A program made the translations under genes and the position numbers. Under the pieces are notes generated by a model. The model made no database searches, was not told the DNA's origin, and saw nothing but the letters and a program-made list of their open reading frames with translations. From positions 1-64,000 of the forward strand of contig NZ_AUAR01000007.1 of assembly GCF_000428825.1 (NCBI RefSeq): a stretch of DNA of 64,000 bases, given 5' to 3'. This document shows positions 2,311 to 20,508 of the stretch, in pieces (positions within the stretch are counted from its first letter, which is position 1; every line of letters starts with the position of its first letter). This stretch comes from Desulfomicrobium escambiense DSM 10707 (GTDB lineage Bacteria; Desulfobacterota; Desulfovibrionia; Desulfovibrionales; Desulfomicrobiaceae).

Positions 2311-5001
2311 TTAACGGCCGGGCTCCCATTCCCAGAGGGGCAGGCGCATCTCGACCAGCTCTTCCTCGTAGTTGTGGGTCACGGCCAGGCCGAAGCGCTT
2401 GGCCAGGCCGATCATGCCCTTGTTGCGGGGCATGGTCTGGCCTTCGAGGTAACGGGTGCCGCGGCTCTTGCAGTAGCGGATCATCTTTTCGAAGAGCATG
2501 GAGCCCAGGCCAGTGCCCTTCATGTCCGAACGCACGATGATGGCGAACTCGGCCGAGGAGTTGTCGGGCTTGGTGGAGGTGCGGACCACCCCGAGGGTCT
2601 CGGGCTTGCCGTCGACGAGGCGCGTGGCGATGAAGGCCATCTCGCGGTCGTAGTCGATCTGAGTGAACTTGGGCATGTCGCTCAACACGAAGTTCTGGAC
2701 CAGGCCGAAGAAGCGCAGGCGCAGGTCCTCCTCGGACAGGCCGTGGATGAAATCGAGATGGGCCTGAGCGTCCTCGGGACGGATGGGCCGCAGGAGGATC
2801 TGGTCGCCGTTCTTGAGGCGCACGCACTCCTCCAGTTCGCGCGGGTAGGGGCGGATGGCCAGACGTTCGGGGCCCGTGAGCGTGGCCGGCTGAATCCAGA
2901 TGCGTGCGCCCAGGGCCAGTACTCCCTGGTCGTCGGCGAAGATGGGGTTCATCTCCAGGGTGGTGATCTGGGGCAGGTCGATGACCATCTGGCTGATCTG
3001 GATGAGGGCCAGGCAGATGTCGTCGATGTCGGCCGCGGCCTGCCGGCGGGAGCCCTGTAGCAGCTTGGAGATGCGCGTGCGGTAGATGAGCTCCCGGGCC
3101 AGCCCCATGTTCAGGGGCGGCAGGGTCATGGCGTGGTCGTTGATGACCGGGGCCGAGACGCCGCCGTGGCCGAAGCGCAGGATGGGCCCGAAGACCTTGT
3201 CCGTGAAGACGGAGATGAACAGCTCGTGGGCGCCGGGGCGGCGGCCCATCTTCTGCACGGTGAAGCCCTCGATGTAGGCGTTGGGCACCTGGGAGTGCAC
3301 GCGGGCGGACATGTTGGCCGCGGCCTCGAAGACGAGGTCCGGGGTGGTCAGGTCCAAGGCGATGCCGCCGATGTCGAAGGGCTGGGCGATCTGCGGCGAG
3401 CGGATCTTGAGGGCCACGGGGAAGCCGATCTCCGAGGCGGCGTCCACGGCCTGCATGGCCGACTTGCAGATGCGGGTCTCGACCACGGGCACGCCGTAGG
3501 AGGCCAGGACCTGGCGGGACTCCTCCTCGGAGAGCTGGGTGCGGTCCTCGCTCAAGGCCTTTCTGATGATGTCCAGGGCGTGCTCCGTGTCCGGGAAGAA
3601 GTCCGCGGGCAGGGAGTCCGGGGTCTGCATGAGGATCTTCTGGGTGCGCTTGTAGCGCAGCATGTGCAGGTAGGCCATGATGGCCTTGCCCGGCCGGTCG
3701 AAGACCGGGATGGCCGCGTCCTCGAAGACGTCCTTGGTGTCGCGCACGGTCTCCTCGCCGAGCCAGTTGGCCAGCACCAGGCAGCGGCTGGTCTTGGCCA
3801 CCTGGGTCACGGCCTGGGCGATCTCGAGGCTCGACGTGCCCTGGAAGGGAACGTGCAGGATAAGCACGCAGCCCACGTCCTTGGCCCGCACCAGAATGCT
3901 CAGGACACGGGCGTAGTCTTCGGGCGAGGCGTTGTACGGCAGGGTGACCGGGTTGTCGGAGCAGCGTTCGGGGCCGAGGATCTCCTCCAGCTTGAGCTGG
4001 GTCTCCTCGGTGATGGCGGCCAGTTCCCCTCCCCCCTGGATGAGCGTGTCGGCGGCCAGCAGGCCGATGCTCTGCCCGTTGGTCACGATGGCCAGGCCGT
4101 TGCCGCGCAGGGGCTTGTAGTTGGCCAGGGTGCGGGCGCCCTCGAACAGGGAGTCGATGTCGTCCACGCGGACCATGCCGGCACGACGGAAGGCGGCGTC
4201 GTAGATCTGGTCCTGGTCCATCTCGGTCAGCTCGCTGGCCGCGTCGCGCAGTTCGCAGGGCAGGCGCCGGGGGCGGATGACGAGGATGGGCTTGTTGCGG
4301 GCGCTGGCCCGGGCCGCGGACATGAAGCGCCGGGCGTCCTGGATGTTCTCGATGTAGAGCAGAATGGCCTTGGTGGCCGGGTCGGAGCCGAGGTAGTCGA
4401 GGACCGAGCTGAAGTCGATGTCCAGCTGGCGGCCCAGGGAGACGCAGTGGGAAAAGCCGACGTTGTTGGTCCGGGCCCAGTCGAGAACGGACTCGAAGAG
4501 GCTGTCGGACTGGGTGACGAAGGCGATGCGGCCCTCCTTGGCGCCCACGCGCGACAGGCTCGCGTTGACGCCCGAAGCGGGCACGATCATGCCCAGGCTC
4601 CCGGGGCCCAGGACGCGGATGTCCTTGTCGCGGGAGACCTGGCGGATGCGCTCGTCTATCTGGGCCTTCTGCGGGCCGTCCAGGAGGGCGTAGCCCGGGT
4701 CCATGATGACGGCCACGTGGGTGCCGTTATCGGCCAGTTCGGACAAACGGTCCGGGGCGTCGAAGACTGAGGAGCAGATGATGGCCATGTCCGGGGTCAG
4801 GGGCAGGGACGTGACGCTGACGTAGGACAGCACTCCGAAGATGGCCTCCTGGGCTCCGGACACGGGCAGCACCGGGCCCAGGAATTTTCCGGACATGAGA
4901 TTGCGCATGAGGATGGCGCTGACCGAGTTGGGGTCGCGCGAAGCGCCGATGATGGCCAGGGAATTGGGCTTGAACAACAGATCCAGGTGTTTGACGCTCA
5001 T
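2311..5001 (-). CDS. Pat-type protein lysine acetyltransferase: NDP-forming acyl-CoA synthetase-like domains plus GNAT
   Basis: An 896-residue protein with the acyl-CoA synthetase (NDP-forming) layout: CoA-binding Rossmann domain (SLAIIGASRDPNS near residue 10), ligase domains, ATP-grasp (about 500-700), then a C-terminal GNAT domain from about 735 with KGTGLGS near 830. The catalytic phospho-histidine of active ADP-forming enzymes, normally in an SHTGALAG-like segment before the YDAAF motif, is absent: around residue 253 the sequence reads AASELTEMDQDQIYDAAF. This matches Pat/YfiQ regulators, which acetylate the catalytic lysine of Acs. The start at 5001 (MSVKHLDLLF) was chosen because family similarity begins there; the reading frame extends upstream without recognisable homology. 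The divergent neighbour is acs, its probable substrate. Confidence 0.9.
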   Translation of the reverse strand: MSVKHLDLLFKPNSLAIIGASRDPNSVSAILMRNLMSGKFLGPVLPVSGAQEAIFGVLSYVSVTSLPLTPDMAIICSSVFDAPDRLSELADNGTHVAVIMDPGYALLDGPQKAQIDERIRQVSRDKDIRVLGPGSLGMIVPASGVNASLSRVGAKEGRIAFVTQSDSLFESVLDWARTNNVGFSHCVSLGRQLDIDFSSVLDYLGSDPATKAILLYIENIQDARRFMSAARASARNKPILVIRPRRLPCELRDAASELTEMDQDQIYDAAFRRAGMVRVDDIDSLFEGARTLANYKPLRGNGLAIVTNGQSIGLLAADTLIQGGGELAAITEETQLKLEEILGPERCSDNPVTLPYNASPEDYARVLSILVRAKDVGCVLILHVPFQGTSSLEIAQAVTQVAKTSRCLVLANWLGEETVRDTKDVFEDAAIPVFDRPGKAIMAYLHMLRYKRTQKILMQTPDSLPADFFPDTEHALDIIRKALSEDRTQLSEEESRQVLASYGVPVVETRICKSAMQAVDAASEIGFPVALKIRSPQIAQPFDIGGIALDLTTPDLVFEAAANMSARVHSQVPNAYIEGFTVQKMGRRPGAHELFISVFTDKVFGPILRFGHGGVSAPVINDHAMTLPPLNMGLARELIYRTRISKLLQGSRRQAAADIDDICLALIQISQMVIDLPQITTLEMNPIFADDQGVLALGARIWIQPATLTGPERLAIRPYPRELEECVRLKNGDQILLRPIRPEDAQAHLDFIHGLSEEDLRLRFFGLVQNFVLSDMPKFTQIDYDREMAFIATRLVDGKPETLGVVRTSTKPDNSSAEFAIIVRSDMKGTGLGSMLFEKMIRYCKSRGTRYLEGQTMPRNKGMIGLAKRFGLAVTHNYEEELVEMRLPLWEWEPGR

Positions 5002-10941: not shown

Positions 10942-11092
10942 TTCCGACACCATCAGTCCGAAAAATCTTGATCTCCGCCCCGTGCCGTCTTAGGGCTCGG
11001 GGCGAGGGCCGCGAGGCTTACATCCCGTGCGCTGCGCCGGCGGGTACCGGCATCGCCCCTCCCCAGAAACCACCAACCACAATCCGACACGC

Positions 11093-11290
11093 ATGATCAC
11101 CGTACGCATCGAACCCGAGAACCGGGAATTCACCATGGACCGTCCAGGCACGGTCGCCCAGCTTCTGCTCAAGGTCGGCCGCAAGCCCGGCCGCGCCCTC
11201 GTCATCCGCGACGGAGGCCTGCTCACACACGACCTGAACCTCAAGGACGGCGACCACATCACCGTGCGCGACGTCGGGTCCAGGGGGTAG
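11093..11290 (+). CDS. ThiS/MoaD/TtuB-like beta-grasp protein without a GG tail
   Basis: A 65-residue protein beginning MITVRIEPENREF, with beta-grasp sulfur-carrier features: GTVAQLLLKVG and ALVIRDGGLLTHDLNLKDGD. Such carriers are thiocarboxylated on a C-terminal Gly-Gly and deliver sulfur. Here the end is DVGSRG, a single terminal glycine. The gene ends 2 nt before the TtuA-like thiolase, the genuine partner type for a TtuB-like carrier. No Shine-Dalgarno sequence is evident; an upstream in-frame ATG at 11027 adds residues that do not look like the family. The preceding gap contains an imperfect GC hairpin (10976-11004) without a T tract. Confidence 0.7.
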   Translation: MITVRIEPENREFTMDRPGTVAQLLLKVGRKPGRALVIRDGGLLTHDLNLKDGDHITVRDVGSRG

Positions 11291-11292
11291 CC

Positions 11293-12204
11293 ATGAAGTG
11301 CAAACGCTGCCACGTCCCGGCCGTCGTCGCCCTGCCCAGCCACCACACGGCCTTCTGCAGGGAGTGCTTCCTGGTCTTCGCCCGCCGTCTGGTGGAGCGG
11401 GCCATCAAGGAGCACGACATGTTCACCTTCGAGGACCGCATCCTCATCGCCATCTCCGGCGGCAAGGACTCCCTGGCCCTGTCCTGGATGCTGCAGGATC
11501 TGGGCTACAACATCGAAGGGCTGCACATCGACCTGGGCATCCCCGAGTCATCGCCCATCGCCCGCGGCTACACCGAACGCTTCTGCGAAAAGCACGGCAT
11601 CCGGCTGCACGTCATCGAAACGGCCTCCATGGGCCTGGCCATGTGCGACGTGAAGAAGCGCGTGAAGCGCCCCATCTGCTCGGTCTGCGGCCAGACCAAG
11701 CGCTACCTTTTCAACCGCTTCGCCATGGACAACGGCTTCACGGCCCTGGCCACGGGCCACAACCTCGACGACGAGACCTCGCGCCTCTTCGCCAATGTCA
11801 TGCGCTGGGACGTGGAGTACCTGAGTGACCAGGGCCCGGTCATGCCGGCCGAGGGCGGCTTCGCCAAGAAGGTCAAGCCCCTCTTCCGCATGTCCGAGTT
11901 CGAGACGGCCAACCTCTGCTTCCTGGCCGGCATCGACTACGGCTACGCCCCCTGCCCCTACAGCTCCAAGGCCAGCTTCCCCATCTACAAGAAGCTCCTC
12001 TCGGACCTGGAGGACATCCAGCCAGGCCGCAAGATCCGCTTCTACGACGGCTTCCTCAAGGATGGCCGCCCCGGCTTCGCCCCCCGCGGCGAAACCTCCG
12101 TCGCCATCCAGCCCTGCACGACCTGCGGCTACCCCACCTCAGCCGGGGAATGCGGCTTCTGCAGGCTGAAAGCGATGATGAACGAGGGGAAAGAGGAAGG
12201 TTAG
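11293..12204 (+). CDS. TtuA/Ncs6-like PP-loop tRNA 2-thiolation protein
   Basis: A 303-residue adenylating sulfurtransferase of the TtuA/Ncs6 (CTU1) group. Visible parts: N-terminal zinc finger CKRCH...CREC (residues 3-28), PP-loop ISGGKDS near 55, central cysteines ICSVCGQ near 130 and PCPYSSKA near 220 (in TtuA the central Cys residues hold an Fe-S cluster), and a C-terminal finger CTTCGYPT...CGFC. The enzyme adenylates a tRNA uridine and replaces oxygen with sulfur. The gene starts 2 nt after the beta-grasp gene, so carrier and enzyme are one unit. Which uridine is modified cannot be read from sequence. Confidence 0.88.
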   Translation: MKCKRCHVPAVVALPSHHTAFCRECFLVFARRLVERAIKEHDMFTFEDRILIAISGGKDSLALSWMLQDLGYNIEGLHIDLGIPESSPIARGYTERFCEKHGIRLHVIETASMGLAMCDVKKRVKRPICSVCGQTKRYLFNRFAMDNGFTALATGHNLDDETSRLFANVMRWDVEYLSDQGPVMPAEGGFAKKVKPLFRMSEFETANLCFLAGIDYGYAPCPYSSKASFPIYKKLLSDLEDIQPGRKIRFYDGFLKDGRPGFAPRGETSVAIQPCTTCGYPTSAGECGFCRLKAMMNEGKEEG

Positions 12205-13426: not shown

Positions 13427-13455
13427 TTGACATCGATTTAATCAATAACTACCAA
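13427..13455 (+). promoter_or_regulatory. Candidate sigma70 promoter for the selenoprotein gene
   Basis: A perfect -35 TTGACA (13427-13432) and a weak -10 TACCAA (13450-13455) with a 17-nt spacer, 25 nt before the start codon. Only the -35 is a strong match. Confidence 0.4.
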
Positions 13456-13479
13456 CGATCCCACACAAAGGAGGATTCC

Positions 13480-13785
13480 ATGTTTGAACTGACCAAGGCT
13501 GCCAAAGAGCAGCTCGACATGCACTTCGCCGGCAAGGAAGTGTCCCCGATCCGGGTCTACATGGCGGCTGGCTGAGGCGGGCCTCGCCTGGCGCTTGCTC
13601 TGGATGAGCAAAAAGACAACGACGTGGTTCACGTAATCGACGGATACACCTTTCTGATTGAAACCAACCTGATGAGCGAAGCTCAGCCCATCTCCGTGGA
13701 ATTCCACCCGCACATGGGCTTCAACATCAAGTCGAACATGAAGGCGAGCTCCTCCGGGTGCTCTTCCTGCACTTCCTGCGGCTAG
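13480..13785 (+). CDS. HesB/IscA-like selenoprotein with in-frame UGA (Sec32)
   Basis: Reading from ATG 13480 (AGGAGG 5-6 nt upstream) gives RVYMAAG, a TGA at 13573-13575, then GGPRLALALDEQKDNDV and on to a cysteine-rich end CSSCTSCG and TAG at 13783. Total 101 residues with codon 32 UGA. Sequence on both sides is one continuous HesB/IscA-type fold, in which the position after AAG is normally the first cluster-ligand cysteine, so UGA replaces Cys. HesB-like selenoproteins are a known family in deltaproteobacteria. A GC-rich stem-loop follows the UGA. The terminator downstream is in the same direction. Function is probably redox or Fe-S related; the exact role is unknown. Standard gene callers would truncate or miss it. 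Confidence 0.92.
13573..13598 (+). promoter_or_regulatory. UGA-Sec codon and candidate bacterial SECIS hairpin
   Basis: Immediately after the UGA, GCGGGC (13577-13582) can pair with GCTTGC (13593-13598) using two G-U pairs around a ten-base loop; a competing GCC/GGC stem is possible. Bacterial SECIS elements occupy this position. Pairing was judged by eye. Confidence 0.55.
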
Positions 13786-13807
13786 ACTGCAGCAGCTTGA
13801 AACGCAC

Positions 13808-13838
13808 GGGGGCCGTCCGCGAGGATGGCCCTTTTGCG
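13808..13838 (+). terminator. Rho-independent terminator after the selenoprotein gene
   Basis: GGGCCGTCC (13810-13818) pairs imperfectly with GGATGGCCC (13823-13831) around GCGA and is followed by TTTT. Confidence 0.8.
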
Positions 13839-13896
13839 TTGGAAGCTCCGGCCGCAGCGGCGCCGCAACTTTTTTGCGGACAGGTGAAAAAAGCCT

Positions 13897-14297: not shown

Positions 14298-15077
14298 TTA
14301 CATTCCGAGCTTCGATGCGCTTCGACGTACCAAGCCGATGCCAGCCAGCCCGATCCCCACGAGAAGCATGGTTGTCGGTTCGGGGACGGCGTTGTTCGTA
14401 CCCAGATCGCCTTCAAGCCGGAACGCCACATCTCCCCCCCTGAACCCTATAACAGACAAGTCCTGCCACCCGGTTCCGTAGCTGAATCCCCCACCGGGAT
14501 TGATGAAAAGGGCCGCTTCTTCGTTCGTCGTATCAGAGGGTTGACGTCCATATTGGCCATATGAACCAAAATTCATTTCCGGCCAGAACACGAGCCACCA
14601 ATGGCCCGCAGCCACATTCACGTCGGTGCTCAGGTTCAAGGTAACATTGGACAAATAGCCGTCCGCGCCGGTTGAAAGGGCAATCTGCGCATCGTCAGGT
14701 GCGATGGAGAGATTCCACGTTCCGGCAGCCGGGGGAATGCCGGCGGGAAGGCCGGCGGCGTCTGCGTAAATGGCGAAATTGAGCGATGTGGCGAGTTCCA
14801 AGGACGAGAATCCGTTCCATCCGCTTCCGGGAATGAATATCGTACTGATATCCCACGGAACGGTGTTGACGAAATCGTCGGCAATGTAGCTACTGAATGT
14901 TGTAAAATCTTGGAATTCCTGATCAACGTAAGCATTCGTGTCCGAGGTGCTTAATGGCTGGTCCCAGAGCACGCTCGCCCGCGCCGGACTGGTTCCCAGC
15001 ATTGAGAAGATCAACACGGCACTGCATATCACTTTGGTTAGGTGCAGAAAAATCTGTGTGATGAGTCGCGACCGCAT
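14298..15077 (-). CDS. PEP-CTERM protein 1, exported exosortase substrate
   Basis: A 259-residue secreted protein with an N-terminal signal segment (hydrophobic VICSAVLIFSMLGTSPARA, cleavage probably after ARA) and a C-terminal sorting signal: VPEPTTMLLVGIGLAGIGL followed by a basic tail. The exosortase should cut near PEP. The middle is a Ser/Asn/Gly-rich beta-type domain without a recognised enzyme motif. Start at 15077 (MRSRLITQIF) is fixed by AGGAGG about 8 nt upstream; the frame continues further upstream without meaning. It is transcribed on the same strand as prsR just upstream but has its own sigma54 promoter. Confidence 0.9.
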   Translation of the reverse strand: MRSRLITQIFLHLTKVICSAVLIFSMLGTSPARASVLWDQPLSTSDTNAYVDQEFQDFTTFSSYIADDFVNTVPWDISTIFIPGSGWNGFSSLELATSLNFAIYADAAGLPAGIPPAAGTWNLSIAPDDAQIALSTGADGYLSNVTLNLSTDVNVAAGHWWLVFWPEMNFGSYGQYGRQPSDTTNEEAALFINPGGGFSYGTGWQDLSVIGFRGGDVAFRLEGDLGTNNAVPEPTTMLLVGIGLAGIGLVRRSASKLGM

Positions 15078-15138
15078 GGGATGATCCTCCTTTGATTTTT
15101 TGCAATGGTGAAGATCGAAACCGATCCACATTCGCCCA

Positions 15139-15154
15139 TGCAATCTTGGTTCCA
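15139..15154 (-). promoter_or_regulatory. Sigma54 (-24/-12) promoter for PEP-CTERM gene 1
   Basis: The reverse strand reads TGGAAC-CAAGA-TTGCA, with the invariant GG and GC 10 nt apart. It lies about 60 nt before the start codon. Confidence 0.75.
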
Positions 15155-15281
15155 TCCTCTCAGCCCGGACTCTGGTGTATGGAATCCCGATACGTGAACG
15201 ACAGCACATCGCGGAGACCGGCCAGGTTGCCTGGCCTAGTCGGTCCCTGCGCATTTGGCGGCCCAACCTGTCGAAAAATTT

Positions 15282-15298
15282 CGAAAGAATCGCCGACA
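15282..15298 (-). promoter_or_regulatory. Candidate PrsR-binding box upstream of PEP-CTERM gene 1
   Basis: The reverse strand reads TGTCGGCGATTCTTTCG, about 130 bp upstream of the sigma54 promoter. It shares 12 of 17 positions with the box at 63477-63493. An adjacent inverted repeat GTCTGA-N7-TCAGAC lies at 15303-15321. Confidence 0.45.
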
Positions 15299-15332
15299 TA
15301 CAGTCTGACAATTTATCAGACACGGACGGTCC

Positions 15333-16709
<1,377 letters not shown>

Positions 16710-16783
16710 GGCATCCCTCGATTCCTGCTAGGAGAACACTCTCACCCAGGTGCGCACGCCCATCGAACGCCGGCTCCCAGCCT

Positions 16784-16824
16784 GTCCACACCGTCCATAT
16801 GGTCCATTTCGTCCATCCAGTCCA
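16784..16824. repeat. Degenerate 9-nt periodic array, GTCCA-N4 (reverse TGGAC-N4), five copies
   Basis: GTCCA recurs at 16784, 16793, 16802, 16811 and 16820 in the 129-nt gap between prsK and prsR. Same unit and copy number as the array in aas (10019-10059), on the opposite strand. Confidence 0.75.
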
Positions 16825-16838
16825 CTCGATACTCCCCC

Positions 16839-18890
16839 TCACGCCTCCGCCCCCGGCAGCCAGACCGTGAACTCGGCCCCCTCCCCAACCGTGCTCCTGA
16901 CCTCGATGCGGCCGCCGTGGGCCGAAACGATCTGCTTGCACTGGTAGAGCCCGATGCCCATGCCCTTGGCCTTGGTGGACTTGAAGGGCTCGAAAAGCGC
17001 GGTTCTGATGAACTCCGGGTCGATGCCGCCGCCCTGATCCGAGACGCGCACGAAGGGCTCCGGGCCGTCCCCGGTTGTGACCGTGACCGGCCGGCCGTCG
17101 GGGGAGGCCTCCAGGGCGTTGAGGCAGAGGTTCAGGATGACCTTGCCCATCTCCTCGGCGTCGACCATGGCCACGGCGTCCTCGCCCCCGAAGTCCAGCC
17201 GCTCCTGGTGCAGCAGCCGCGTCGACTCCCTGGCCAACGTCAGCAGGCCGACTGGCGCGCGCTTCAGAGTCTGGCGGTCGGGCAGCCCTTTGAGCTGGGA
17301 AATCAGAATCTTCATCTTGCCCACGGTGCTGCCCAGGGAGTCCACCAAATCCCGCTGGAAATCGGGGTTGCCGATGAACTTGCGCGCGTTCTCTGCCATG
17401 AGGGACAGCGTGTAGACGTGGTTCTTCAGGTCGTGCAGCACGAAGGCCGAAACCCGCCCCATGATCTCCATCTCCCGCGAGCGCGCCAACTGCTCCGTGA
17501 GACGCATGTTCAGGAGGGCCGAGGAGATGTGCCGGGCCATGGTGTCCATGAGCTCGAAGTCCTCCTCGTCGTATTCCTCGCTCTCATTGATGGCCGGCCC
17601 CAGAAGCACGAAACCGTCGAGGCCGTCGTCACGGAAGATGGGGATGGCGAACCGCGCGGCCTTCAACCACGGGGAGGGGTCGTTCACGTCCGCGGTGCGG
17701 ACCACGCTGCGGCGGGTGCGCAACGCCGCCGCCAAGTGCGAACCCTCGTCGAAACCACCCTCCTGCGGGTCCGTTTCCACGAGGCTGACGGGCACGTAGG
17801 TGCGGCTGCCGTGGTCCAGCAGGAACAGGGCCGCCCCGACGATGCCGAAGGTCTCGCAGCAGGCCGACAAGGCCGCTTGATGGAGTTCGGTCTGGCTGCG
17901 GGCCGAGATGAGCCTGTCCGTGAACTGCACCCACTGGATGCGGTAGTCATACTTCTCCCCGTAGAAGTGCAGCTGGAGAAAAAGTCGGACCCTTCGCCTG
18001 ACCGTGTCCGAGAGGAAGAGCATGAGCAGGCCGATGCCGGCGGCGAAGCAGACGCCGAGGAGCACGGCACGTCCCAACTCGTCCCCGAAGACCCGAGCCC
18101 CCTCGCCCGCGAAACCCAGGACGACCAGGTACAGTCCCGCCGTGACGAGGGCCACGGACTTGAAGGCCATGCGCCGGGAAAAGCTGATCCTGACTTCCGG
18201 CCCGCGCCGCGCGTCCGAAAACCACATCATGCCCACACCCGCAAGCACCGCCAGGGAACGCAACCAGGCGAGGCGCATGTCGAGGGAGCGGTACAGCACG
18301 CCCTGACTGTAATAGAGGATAAGGGCCACCAACACGCAGACGCCACCCAGCAGCACGAACTTGATCTTCCAGCGCCGGAAGTGCGTCGCGCCGGCCATGG
18401 TCCCTTCGATGTTGAAGAGCGCGGCCATGCAGCACAGGACGAAGGCGATGCAGAAATGGAACGTCCCGGGAAGCAGGAAGAGCAGGCGCTCACTCGCGAA
18501 ATCAGGGGCGTAGTAGGCCCCCCGGAAAGCGAGGAACGCGCTCCAGGGCAACAAAAGGCCAGAGAGCAGAACCAGCAGGCGCTGCATCCGCGGCAGTCGT
18601 TCGCCTTCGTACTCCCTGGCGAAAAACGCCGTGAACAGCACCCACGTCGGCCCCAACGCGCCTTCGATCACGAGGCCGGCCGCACGCCACGCCCGCACCC
18701 GCTCCGGGTCGAACATGCAGGCCAGGTCCACCGTTTCGAGGCCAGCGAGCAGGATCAGCGCCACGGCCCAAACCGCAGACGCGCGGGTGCGCGTGCCGTC
18801 GAACACGCCTGCGGCCAGGCGGGAGGCAAAGGCCAGGGCCGCAATGATGGCGGCCGCGGGGGCCAGGGCGAAAAGAAGATGGCTGTTCAT
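16839..18890 (-). CDS. prsK: PrsK: PEP-CTERM-system membrane histidine kinase
   Basis: A 683-residue sensor kinase. The N-terminal 300 residues contain about nine hydrophobic segments (for example LLFALAPAAAIIAALAFASR), followed by a GAF-like region (about 340-470) and a kinase core with the H-box FVLHDLKNHVYTLSLMAENA near 485 and ATP-binding motifs VILNLCLNALEA, DQGGGI and GMGIGLYQCKQI. This is the PrsK architecture of XrtA systems; it should phosphorylate PrsR. The stimulus is unknown. It starts at ATG 18890, four bases after the EpsI stop, so it is translationally coupled. Confidence 0.94.
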   Translation of the reverse strand: MNSHLLFALAPAAAIIAALAFASRLAAGVFDGTRTRASAVWAVALILLAGLETVDLACMFDPERVRAWRAAGLVIEGALGPTWVLFTAFFAREYEGERLPRMQRLLVLLSGLLLPWSAFLAFRGAYYAPDFASERLLFLLPGTFHFCIAFVLCCMAALFNIEGTMAGATHFRRWKIKFVLLGGVCVLVALILYYSQGVLYRSLDMRLAWLRSLAVLAGVGMMWFSDARRGPEVRISFSRRMAFKSVALVTAGLYLVVLGFAGEGARVFGDELGRAVLLGVCFAAGIGLLMLFLSDTVRRRVRLFLQLHFYGEKYDYRIQWVQFTDRLISARSQTELHQAALSACCETFGIVGAALFLLDHGSRTYVPVSLVETDPQEGGFDEGSHLAAALRTRRSVVRTADVNDPSPWLKAARFAIPIFRDDGLDGFVLLGPAINESEEYDEEDFELMDTMARHISSALLNMRLTEQLARSREMEIMGRVSAFVLHDLKNHVYTLSLMAENARKFIGNPDFQRDLVDSLGSTVGKMKILISQLKGLPDRQTLKRAPVGLLTLARESTRLLHQERLDFGGEDAVAMVDAEEMGKVILNLCLNALEASPDGRPVTVTTGDGPEPFVRVSDQGGGIDPEFIRTALFEPFKSTKAKGMGIGLYQCKQIVSAHGGRIEVRSTVGEGAEFTVWLPGAEA

Positions 18891-18894
18891 ACGG

Positions 18895-19527
18895 CTACGA
18901 TGGCAGATACTCCCGTATCAGCGGATAGAACTCTTTCAGGAACGCCTCGACGACCTGCTCTGCCCGCTCCGTGTCCTCTTGGGCCGTCATGGATATGCGC
19001 ATGAAGCTCTGATCGCGACGACGGTGAAGGACGGACCCCGTGATCTCGGCAAGCTTCAGGGAATATTCGTCGGATATGGTCCGACCGCGCATAAAGAACC
19101 AGTAATAGATGACCTCACGGGTCGCCCCCATGGCGTAGACAGCCTTGACCAGGTTCACAGCCTCGCCGCCGAGGTTCATGGTGGTGCGCTCCGAGGAGAT
19201 TTCCGTCCACCCCCCCCCGGCCACGCAGTGCTTGGGGGAATGGATGCGGCCCGAGGCGGCGCCACCGTCGAAATAGCTCAGGTACATGTCCACCACGGCG
19301 CCGTCCGGACGAGCATAACGCCTGGAGAGATATTCCGTGGGCATGAGGACCTTCATGACCTTTTCGCTCAAGGAAGACTGCCCCACCATTTTCCAGCCGG
19401 AGTGCGAAGGGGGAAAGTCCCCGAAGGGCCTGGCCAGGGGCACCACCAGGTCGCTGTGCAGGTGCATGTACAGCCCGGCCCCGGCCAGCAGGGCGATGAG
19501 CACGGCGATGCGGATGGACGTGTTCAT
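18895..19527 (-). CDS. epsI: EpsI family exosortase-associated protein
   Basis: A 210-residue protein of the EpsI family (DUF3485): one N-terminal membrane or signal segment (IRIAVLIALLAGAGLYMHL), then an outer domain with GWKMVGQ, SYFDGGAASGRIHSPKHCV and YYWFFMRGR. In many XrtA systems this domain is fused to the exosortase; here it is a separate gene whose ATG overlaps the exosortase stop by 4 nt. The ATG at 19527 has AGGAGG 5 nt upstream and is preferred over an upstream GTG at 19533. Biochemical role not established. Confidence 0.92.
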   Translation of the reverse strand: MNTSIRIAVLIALLAGAGLYMHLHSDLVVPLARPFGDFPPSHSGWKMVGQSSLSEKVMKVLMPTEYLSRRYARPDGAVVDMYLSYFDGGAASGRIHSPKHCVAGGGWTEISSERTTMNLGGEAVNLVKAVYAMGATREVIYYWFFMRGRTISDEYSLKLAEITGSVLHRRRDQSFMRISMTAQEDTERAEQVVEAFLKEFYPLIREYLPS

Positions 19528-20357
19528 GGCCACCTCCTGAGAACGGCCCCCAGGGCCATGAACATGACGACGGCCCCGGCGAAGACGAAAAGTCCGGCAA
19601 ACTCATGGAAAAAGCCCTCCGCAGCGGCGGCCCCGAAATATTGCGCCAGAATGCCCGTGGCGATGACCCGCAGGCAGTTGGAAAAGACCGCGATGGGCAG
19701 GGTGGACGCGACGAGGATGACCCGGTCCCTGGTCCTGGAGTGCAGCACCATGGCGTACGCCACGCCCAGGGCCAGGAGGGACATGATGGAGCGCAGGCCG
19801 CTGCAGGCGTCGGCCACCTCCAGGGTGACGTTTGGGAACATGAGGATGTTGCCCTCCTGCCAGACGACGACACCCAGGAACTTGAGGGCCAGGACGGACA
19901 CCTTGGTCACGAAGAGCTTCAGGGGAAAGGCGGCCGCGTCGTACAGGATGTACGGCAGGGGAACCATGAGCAGCAGATAGGCGATCGGGACGAGCAGCGC
20001 GCGGAAGACCTCCCACCCCAGGAGGTAGAGCGTGGACCCGGCGATGACGACGACCAGGGAGGCCCGCATGGTGTAGTACTCCGTCGCCAGCCAGCCGAGC
20101 AGGAGAATGACGAGGCCGGCGACGACCACGGCCAGGCCCGCGGCGCAGGGGCGGACTTTCGCGGCCAGGAGATCCTCCCGGCGCATGTACGCGAGATAGG
20201 CCGAGACGAAAGGCACGAGGAATCCGTGGGAATAGTTCTCATCCTTGGCCCATTGCTTGACCATGGGCACGATGACAGGCCAGTACACGGCTCCGAGGGT
20301 TCCCAGCAGCAGAGCCGCCCCAAACAACACAAGCCTTCGATCCTGCAATTTTTCCAC
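19524..20357 (-). CDS. xrtA: Exosortase (XrtA type), transmembrane cysteine transpeptidase
   Basis: A 277-residue protein with about eight membrane helices and the exosortase catalytic set: Cys in DACSGLRSIMS (near 184), Arg in NCLRVIATG (near 229) and His in FFHEFAGLFVF (near 251). It removes the C-terminal PEP-CTERM helix from exported proteins and probably transfers them to an envelope acceptor. The start is assigned to GTG 20357, which has GAGG 8 nt upstream; the frame extends to 20459 without plausible sequence. First gene of the operon exosortase-epsI-prsK-prsR. XrtA is inferred from the PrsK/PrsR/PrsT context. Confidence 0.94.
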   Translation of the reverse strand: MEKLQDRRLVLFGAALLLGTLGAVYWPVIVPMVKQWAKDENYSHGFLVPFVSAYLAYMRREDLLAAKVRPCAAGLAVVVAGLVILLLGWLATEYYTMRASLVVVIAGSTLYLLGWEVFRALLVPIAYLLLMVPLPYILYDAAAFPLKLFVTKVSVLALKFLGVVVWQEGNILMFPNVTLEVADACSGLRSIMSLLALGVAYAMVLHSRTRDRVILVASTLPIAVFSNCLRVIATGILAQYFGAAAAEGFFHEFAGLFVFAGAVVMFMALGAVLRRWP

Positions 20358-20508
20358 GCAATTCACCTCATTATCCAATTTCTCGAGAAAATACACCCGA
20401 ACGTGGACATTGTAAAAAGAGACGTGGAAAACGAAATCTCCGAAAATGCAGTCAGCCAATTTTTCATGTACGCGGAACGAGAAGAGCCGTATGCTCTTTG
20501 CATTCTGT

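Follow-up and report, generated by a model that had tools for sequence, protein, structure and literature searches.

The window, the whole 64,000-nucleotide stretch of DNA analyzed here, carries on its plus strand a reading frame that opens with an ATG at 13480, closes with a TAG at 13783-13785, and contains a single in-frame TGA at 13573-13575. The read-through product, MFELTKAAKEQLDMHFAGKEVSPIRVYMAAG-U-GGPRLALALDEQKDNDVVHVIDGYTFLIETNLMSEAQPISVEFHPHMGFNIKSNMKASSSGCSSCTSCG, matches the NCBIfam family NF038090 (IscA_HesB_Se) with 100.3 bits over positions 1 to 101 of the 101-position profile (curated cut-off, 85 bits), and a profile search of the whole genome returns the locus 13480-13785 with "1 TGA" inside. 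An earlier note on this DNA had described a frame broken only by this TGA; the frame is indeed open elsewhere and the family match spans the TGA. The note's observation is right, and chance is no credible explanation of it. The features of the locus are as follows.

13427..13455, plus strand: likely promoter, with -35 TTGACA (13427-13432), a 17-nt spacer, and a weak -10 TACCAA (13450-13455); TTGACA is conserved upstream of orthologues
13470..13474, plus strand: ribosome-binding site GGAGG, read from the sequence and kept in relatives
13480..13785, plus strand: selenoprotein gene of the IscA/HesB family (NF038090) encoding 101 residues, Sec being specified by codon 32; from frame, profile match, and genome search
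13573..13575, plus strand: TGA read as selenocysteine (Sec32), in frame and kept in relatives
13595..13611, plus strand: SECIS hairpin, stem TTGCTC/GAGCAA (13595-13600 with 13606-13611) and apical loop TGGAT (13601-13605), which folds in the window and is confined to Sec copies
13756..13782, plus strand: Cys-rich C-terminal tail GCSSCTSCG (Cys94, Cys97, Cys100), candidate partner ligands of Sec32, read from the sequence and of low model confidence
13801..13840, plus strand: strong terminator-like hairpin (-30.8 kcal/mol, z -5.9) with a short T tract (4 T)

The motif AAG-U-GG and the CSSCTSCG tail followed by TAG are present as the earlier note described them, and at the position of the first HesB ligand relatives have U or C aligned to Sec32. 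The related profiles TIGR01911 (HesB_rel_seleno; 31 bits, cut-off 66) and TIGR00049 (22.7 bits, cut-off 58.8) matched the product below their cut-offs, and PF01521 gave no match to it. Three further candidates were rejected: an antisense 91-amino-acid open reading frame at 13438-13713, as a reflection of the conserved frame on the coding strand, and weak matches to Pfam DUF6587 and to an NCBIfam thiopeptide precursor, both on the Cys/Ser-rich tail, as effects of composition. The likely promoter is not among the results of the consensus scan, and beyond it no Fur or IscR box is apparent by eye upstream of the gene. The terminator that the note had placed after the gene stands in that the hairpin is very stable, but its T tract is only four T long and it is absent from the output of the terminator scan.

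Upstream in the window, 11072-12204 contains two genes: a small one resembling ThiS/MoaD, assigned by eye and without a match in the NCBIfam search, and one for a TtuA-like tRNA thiolation enzyme, whose NF049949 score of 273 bits is below the cut-off of that model. A response regulator/diguanylate cyclase gene on the opposite strand stands between the TtuA-like gene and the Sec gene; it is missing from this position in three relatives (L001, L002, and L072). Downstream are tRNA-Val and tRNA-Asp. A Desulfomicrobium metagenome-assembled genome (MAG; L008) shares a neighbor gene at 96% identity, which makes Desulfomicrobium the probable genus, and neighbor order is conserved within the genus only. 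A conserved operon partner was therefore rejected, and across the order no linkage of the Sec gene to an Fe-S target gene was found. Farther along the window, on the minus strand, 14298-15323 encodes a protein whose C terminus resembles a PEP-CTERM sorting signal; adjoining it, 15333-20459 holds genes resembling PrsK/PrsR and the exosortase group (both by eye).

Selenocysteine machinery, conserved UGA, and SECIS hairpin

Profile searches of the genome identified selA (621 bits), selB (361 bits), selD (325 bits, itself with one in-frame TGA), and tRNA-Sec (86 bits; anticodon tca by ARAGORN). The presence of these components indicates a Sec-decoding genome with at least two UGA-containing genes; selA, selB, selC, and selD, by which a bacterial SelB-decoded gene is recognized, are all in the genome. 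Across its TGA, selD (G000:C3:238834-239754) reads TVTAAGUASKLSPGDLEQ, a Sec-containing SelD.

The UGA is conserved. The nearest relatives (72 to 88% identity) carry TGA at the same codon, as do a Clostridium and a Tissierellia relative. The NF038090 family is present in 116 of 120 genomes of the order; about 107 of the 120 have a copy with an in-frame TGA, a count that joins a first, hand-typed listing to a second search of the remaining genomes and in which the TGA position is confirmed for the fetched copies only. Nine genomes have only TGA-less copies. Among these, selA was not found in five (G030, G067, G079, G090, and G111; the assemblies of G067 and G079 are incomplete) and was found in the other four. 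The orthologue in G067, a genome of the same family, reads TVGCGGPRLVLSVDEQKDSD with TGC at the Sec codon, and its hairpin has lost the 5′ arm while retaining the 3′ arm GAGCAA, which looks like a natural loss of Sec. Past the UGA, close relatives differ mostly by silent changes per site (pN of 0.06 to 0.15 versus pS of 0.22 to 0.82), as expected if this region is translated; the purifying signal is less clear in the distant relatives L006 and L082 (pN of about 0.25).

The conserved RNA element is the smaller hairpin at 13595-13611 and not the GC-rich stem adjoining the UGA. The latter, which the earlier note had singled out just after the UGA, folds as a whole no better than shuffled sequences (z -0.94) and varies between relatives, and we rejected it as the SECIS. 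Counted from the UGA, the five inner pairs of the smaller hairpin fall within exactly +20 to +36; 67 of 68 distinct Sec copies have them there and 0 of 35 Cys copies do. These counts are descriptive because related sequences are not independent; versions of the hairpin slid along the sequence did not pair. In a larger set, 80 of 82 Sec copies pair and the two exceptions retain four of the five pairs; some Cys copies in that set are out of register (e.g., L053 and L054), and Cys totals are accordingly taken from the set of 68 Sec and 35 Cys copies. The apical loop is TGGAT, TGGAC, or TGGAA across Sec copies; here it conforms to the G near the start of the loop that marks SelB-decoded genes (UGGAY, with G at loop position 2). 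A conserved apical-loop G is mentioned in the legend to figure 4 of PMC1794560. An Rfam search of the SECIS region returned no match.

The pair +21/+35 varies in a compensatory manner (T-A, G-C, or C-G) and links a silent Leu position with the residue found 12 codons past Sec: Gln accompanies T-A, Pro or Ser accompanies G-C, and Arg accompanies C-G. Sec copies have only Q, P, S, or R at this residue, and Cys copies have A, K, H, and others; the SECIS thus dictates a protein residue at a position that is much freer in Cys copies. Copies with the identical peptide LALDE[QPR], which differ from one another in silent codons, pair in 70 of 72 cases when they carry Sec and in 0 of 9 when they are correctly registered Cys copies. 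As the peptide is the same and the pairing is confined to Sec copies, the constraint acts on the RNA and not on the protein.

Computation establishes the reading frame and its family, the conservation of the UGA, the SECIS, and the Sec machinery. The UGA almost certainly encodes Sec in an IscA/HesB-family protein, as the earlier note had proposed; family score, machinery, and conserved UGA agree. Of the note's two suggested checks, the one for Sec machinery turned up selA, selB, selD, and tRNA-Sec (tca) in the genome, and the one for homologues having Cys or Sec at this codon turned up such proteins within this genome as well as throughout the order.

Sec and Cys forms in the order

The genome also encodes an unlinked Cys paralogue (C5:31902-32192 in G000; L022, L092), which is 56% identical, scores above the NF038090 cut-off, and has a longer Cys-rich tail. 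A search of the whole genome with the PF01521 profile gave no match. The same search, positive in E. coli, Bacillus, and other controls, gave only borderline matches, in 5 genomes, among 61 genomes of the order; four of these lie at Sec/Cys-family genes and the fifth (G054) lies inside a listed NF038090 locus. Canonical A-type carriers (PF01521) are thus essentially absent from the order, leaving the Sec/Cys family as the only A-type-like protein found there. Matches to an IscU/NifU-type scaffold and, over a short stretch, to an Nfu-type protein were obtained in the genome.

A tree of 109 copies, built from few columns and with many unresolved forks, contains 16 changes of Sec/Cys/other label, so that switching between Sec and Cys has been repeated; at least eight Sec changes are forced by well-supported branches. 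Many genomes of another family of the order (f5) have the Sec and Cys forms as tandem neighbors separated by a few hundred bases. We tentatively suggest that in the Desulfovibrionales a selenolate-ligated Fe-S carrier might have replaced canonical A-type carriers, and that selection might re-make the Sec/Cys pair by repeated lineage-specific duplication and switching, with the two forms doing different or selenium-dependent work.

Two further arrangements were observed among the copies. A third tandem copy in L049, L051, L053, L054, and L057 has Glu, Asp, or Ala at the Sec/Cys position; these copies form their own clade on a long branch and keep a CGGxC tail, as a ligand-less derivative. On the minus strand of L083 (G044), 3453-4700 from that strand's 5′ end, three family members form an array: one has Lys in place of Sec, another is a normal Sec copy, and the remaining one is a divergent copy with a UGA that lacks the standard hairpin and is possibly decaying.

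Predicted fold, proposed role, and comparison with known systems

An AlphaFold2 model built on a 20-sequence alignment (pLDDT 84, pTM 0.71) has a disordered tail at residues 91 to 101. Its closest structures are E. coli IscA (1s98, 1r94), holo-IscA with a [2Fe-2S] cluster (1x0g), and SufA (2d2a), with Z scores of 10.8 to 12.1 (1s98, Z 12.1 over 91 residues at 3.0 Å; 2d2a, Z 10.8); Foldseek of the model against IscA gave an E value of 1.8e-5. The protein is therefore predicted to have the IscA/SufA (A-type carrier) fold. Sec32 aligned to the Cys of AQ_1857 (1nwb) and to the first ligand Cys of E. coli IscA. Because overall identity to canonical IscA is low (20%), ligand assignment comes down to this one position and the fold. 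The canonical CGCG ligands of IscA have no exact counterpart; the CSSCTSCG tail stands in their stead, flexible and with three or more Cys that are conserved in relatives.

As a whole, the locus is probably best explained as a SelB-decoded, monocistronic selenoprotein gene whose product acts as the A-type carrier of this lineage. SelB would deliver Sec-tRNA(UCA) to the codon-32 UGA, guided by the hairpin 20 to 36 nt downstream, to yield a 101-residue protein with the IscA/SufA fold. Sec32, at the tip of a β-hairpin, and the thiolates of the flexible Cys-rich tail might then bind iron or an Fe-S cluster (or sulfur/selenium species), which the protein would hand on. In a lineage without a canonical A-type carrier, such binding and transfer would make it serve as one, and the Cys paralogue may act as a backup.

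Within this explanation, the odds are about even that the protein carries Fe-S clusters or metal and does not serve in redox chemistry. A carrier is favored by the fold, by the position of the ligand, and by the lack of other A-type carriers; counting against it are the replacement of the CGCG pair by a CxxCxxC tail that is unstructured in the model, and the phenotype of a distant relative. In Methanococcus maripaludis, where a HesB-like selenoprotein was detected by mutagenesis and 75Se labeling, a hesB-like disruptant is viable and unimpaired in nitrogen fixation (PMC11097638).

The same selenoprotein could instead work in redox chemistry, forming a selenenylsulfide between Sec32 and a tail Cys and being thiol/peroxide-active or redox-sensing on an IscA-like scaffold. 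Sec usually sits in redox sites, as is said of most uncharacterized selenoproteins (PMC13188914), selenium would give a pure metal ligand little obvious advantage, and the conserved tail with its several Cys would suit such a role. Yet the fold is that of an A-type carrier with no thioredoxin-like UxxC motif, Sec occupies a cluster-ligand position, and Cys copies have repeatedly replaced Sec; we consider a redox function possible but unlikely. More doubtful is that the protein handles a non-Fe-S metal or chalcogen, for example in selenium/sulfur delivery or soft-metal sequestration. The Cys/Sec-rich tail is consistent with this, and some members of the genus have the gene immediately after the ThiS/MoaD-like and TtuA-like genes on the same strand, a sulfur-transfer neighborhood; that linkage, however, does not extend beyond the genus and is interrupted in the window by the opposite-strand response-regulator gene, and the Sec gene has its own promoter-like sequence. 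Very improbable, and already refuted at the sequence level, is that the UGA is a true stop ending a 31-residue peptide, or that the locus is a pseudogene or a sequencing error: UGA is a stop under table 11 and the GC-rich fold beside it is no better than shuffles, but the UGA, the downstream coding sequence, and the hairpin recur across the order, the genome encodes Sec machinery, and the same-family genome without a detected selA has a TGC orthologue whose hairpin is lost.

The wider importance of the gene may lie in where it occurs, in a sulfate-reducer order rich in Fe-S enzymes that appears to have only the Sec/Cys family in place of IscA, SufA, and ErpA; in such an order the contribution of selenium at an Fe-S ligand position can be addressed directly.

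Compared with canonical IscA, SufA, and ErpA (PF01521, TIGR00049), the protein shares the fold and the first ligand position but has Sec for Cys and a CSSCTSCG tail versus their CGCGESF, and it falls outside their profiles. Like the TIGR01911/HesB-like selenoproteins, it has a HesB-like domain in which Sec (UxGP) takes the place of the conserved Cys, but NF038090 is the nearer model. HesB-like proteins were one of 25 bacterial selenoprotein families in 2006, with Desulfovibrio vulgaris and D. desulfuricans listed and Sec-to-Cys conversion reported (PMC1794560), and a 2026 review lists the family (TIGR01911, UxGP) (PMC13188914). As such selenoproteins have been published since at least 2006, the gene is correctly read but ordinary in kind. 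From NF038090 it differs in nothing of substance, with a whole-length match above the cut-off, Sec as first ligand, and a Cys-rich tail; it is textbook Sec recoding in an already catalogued family, to which it adds a new member sequence.
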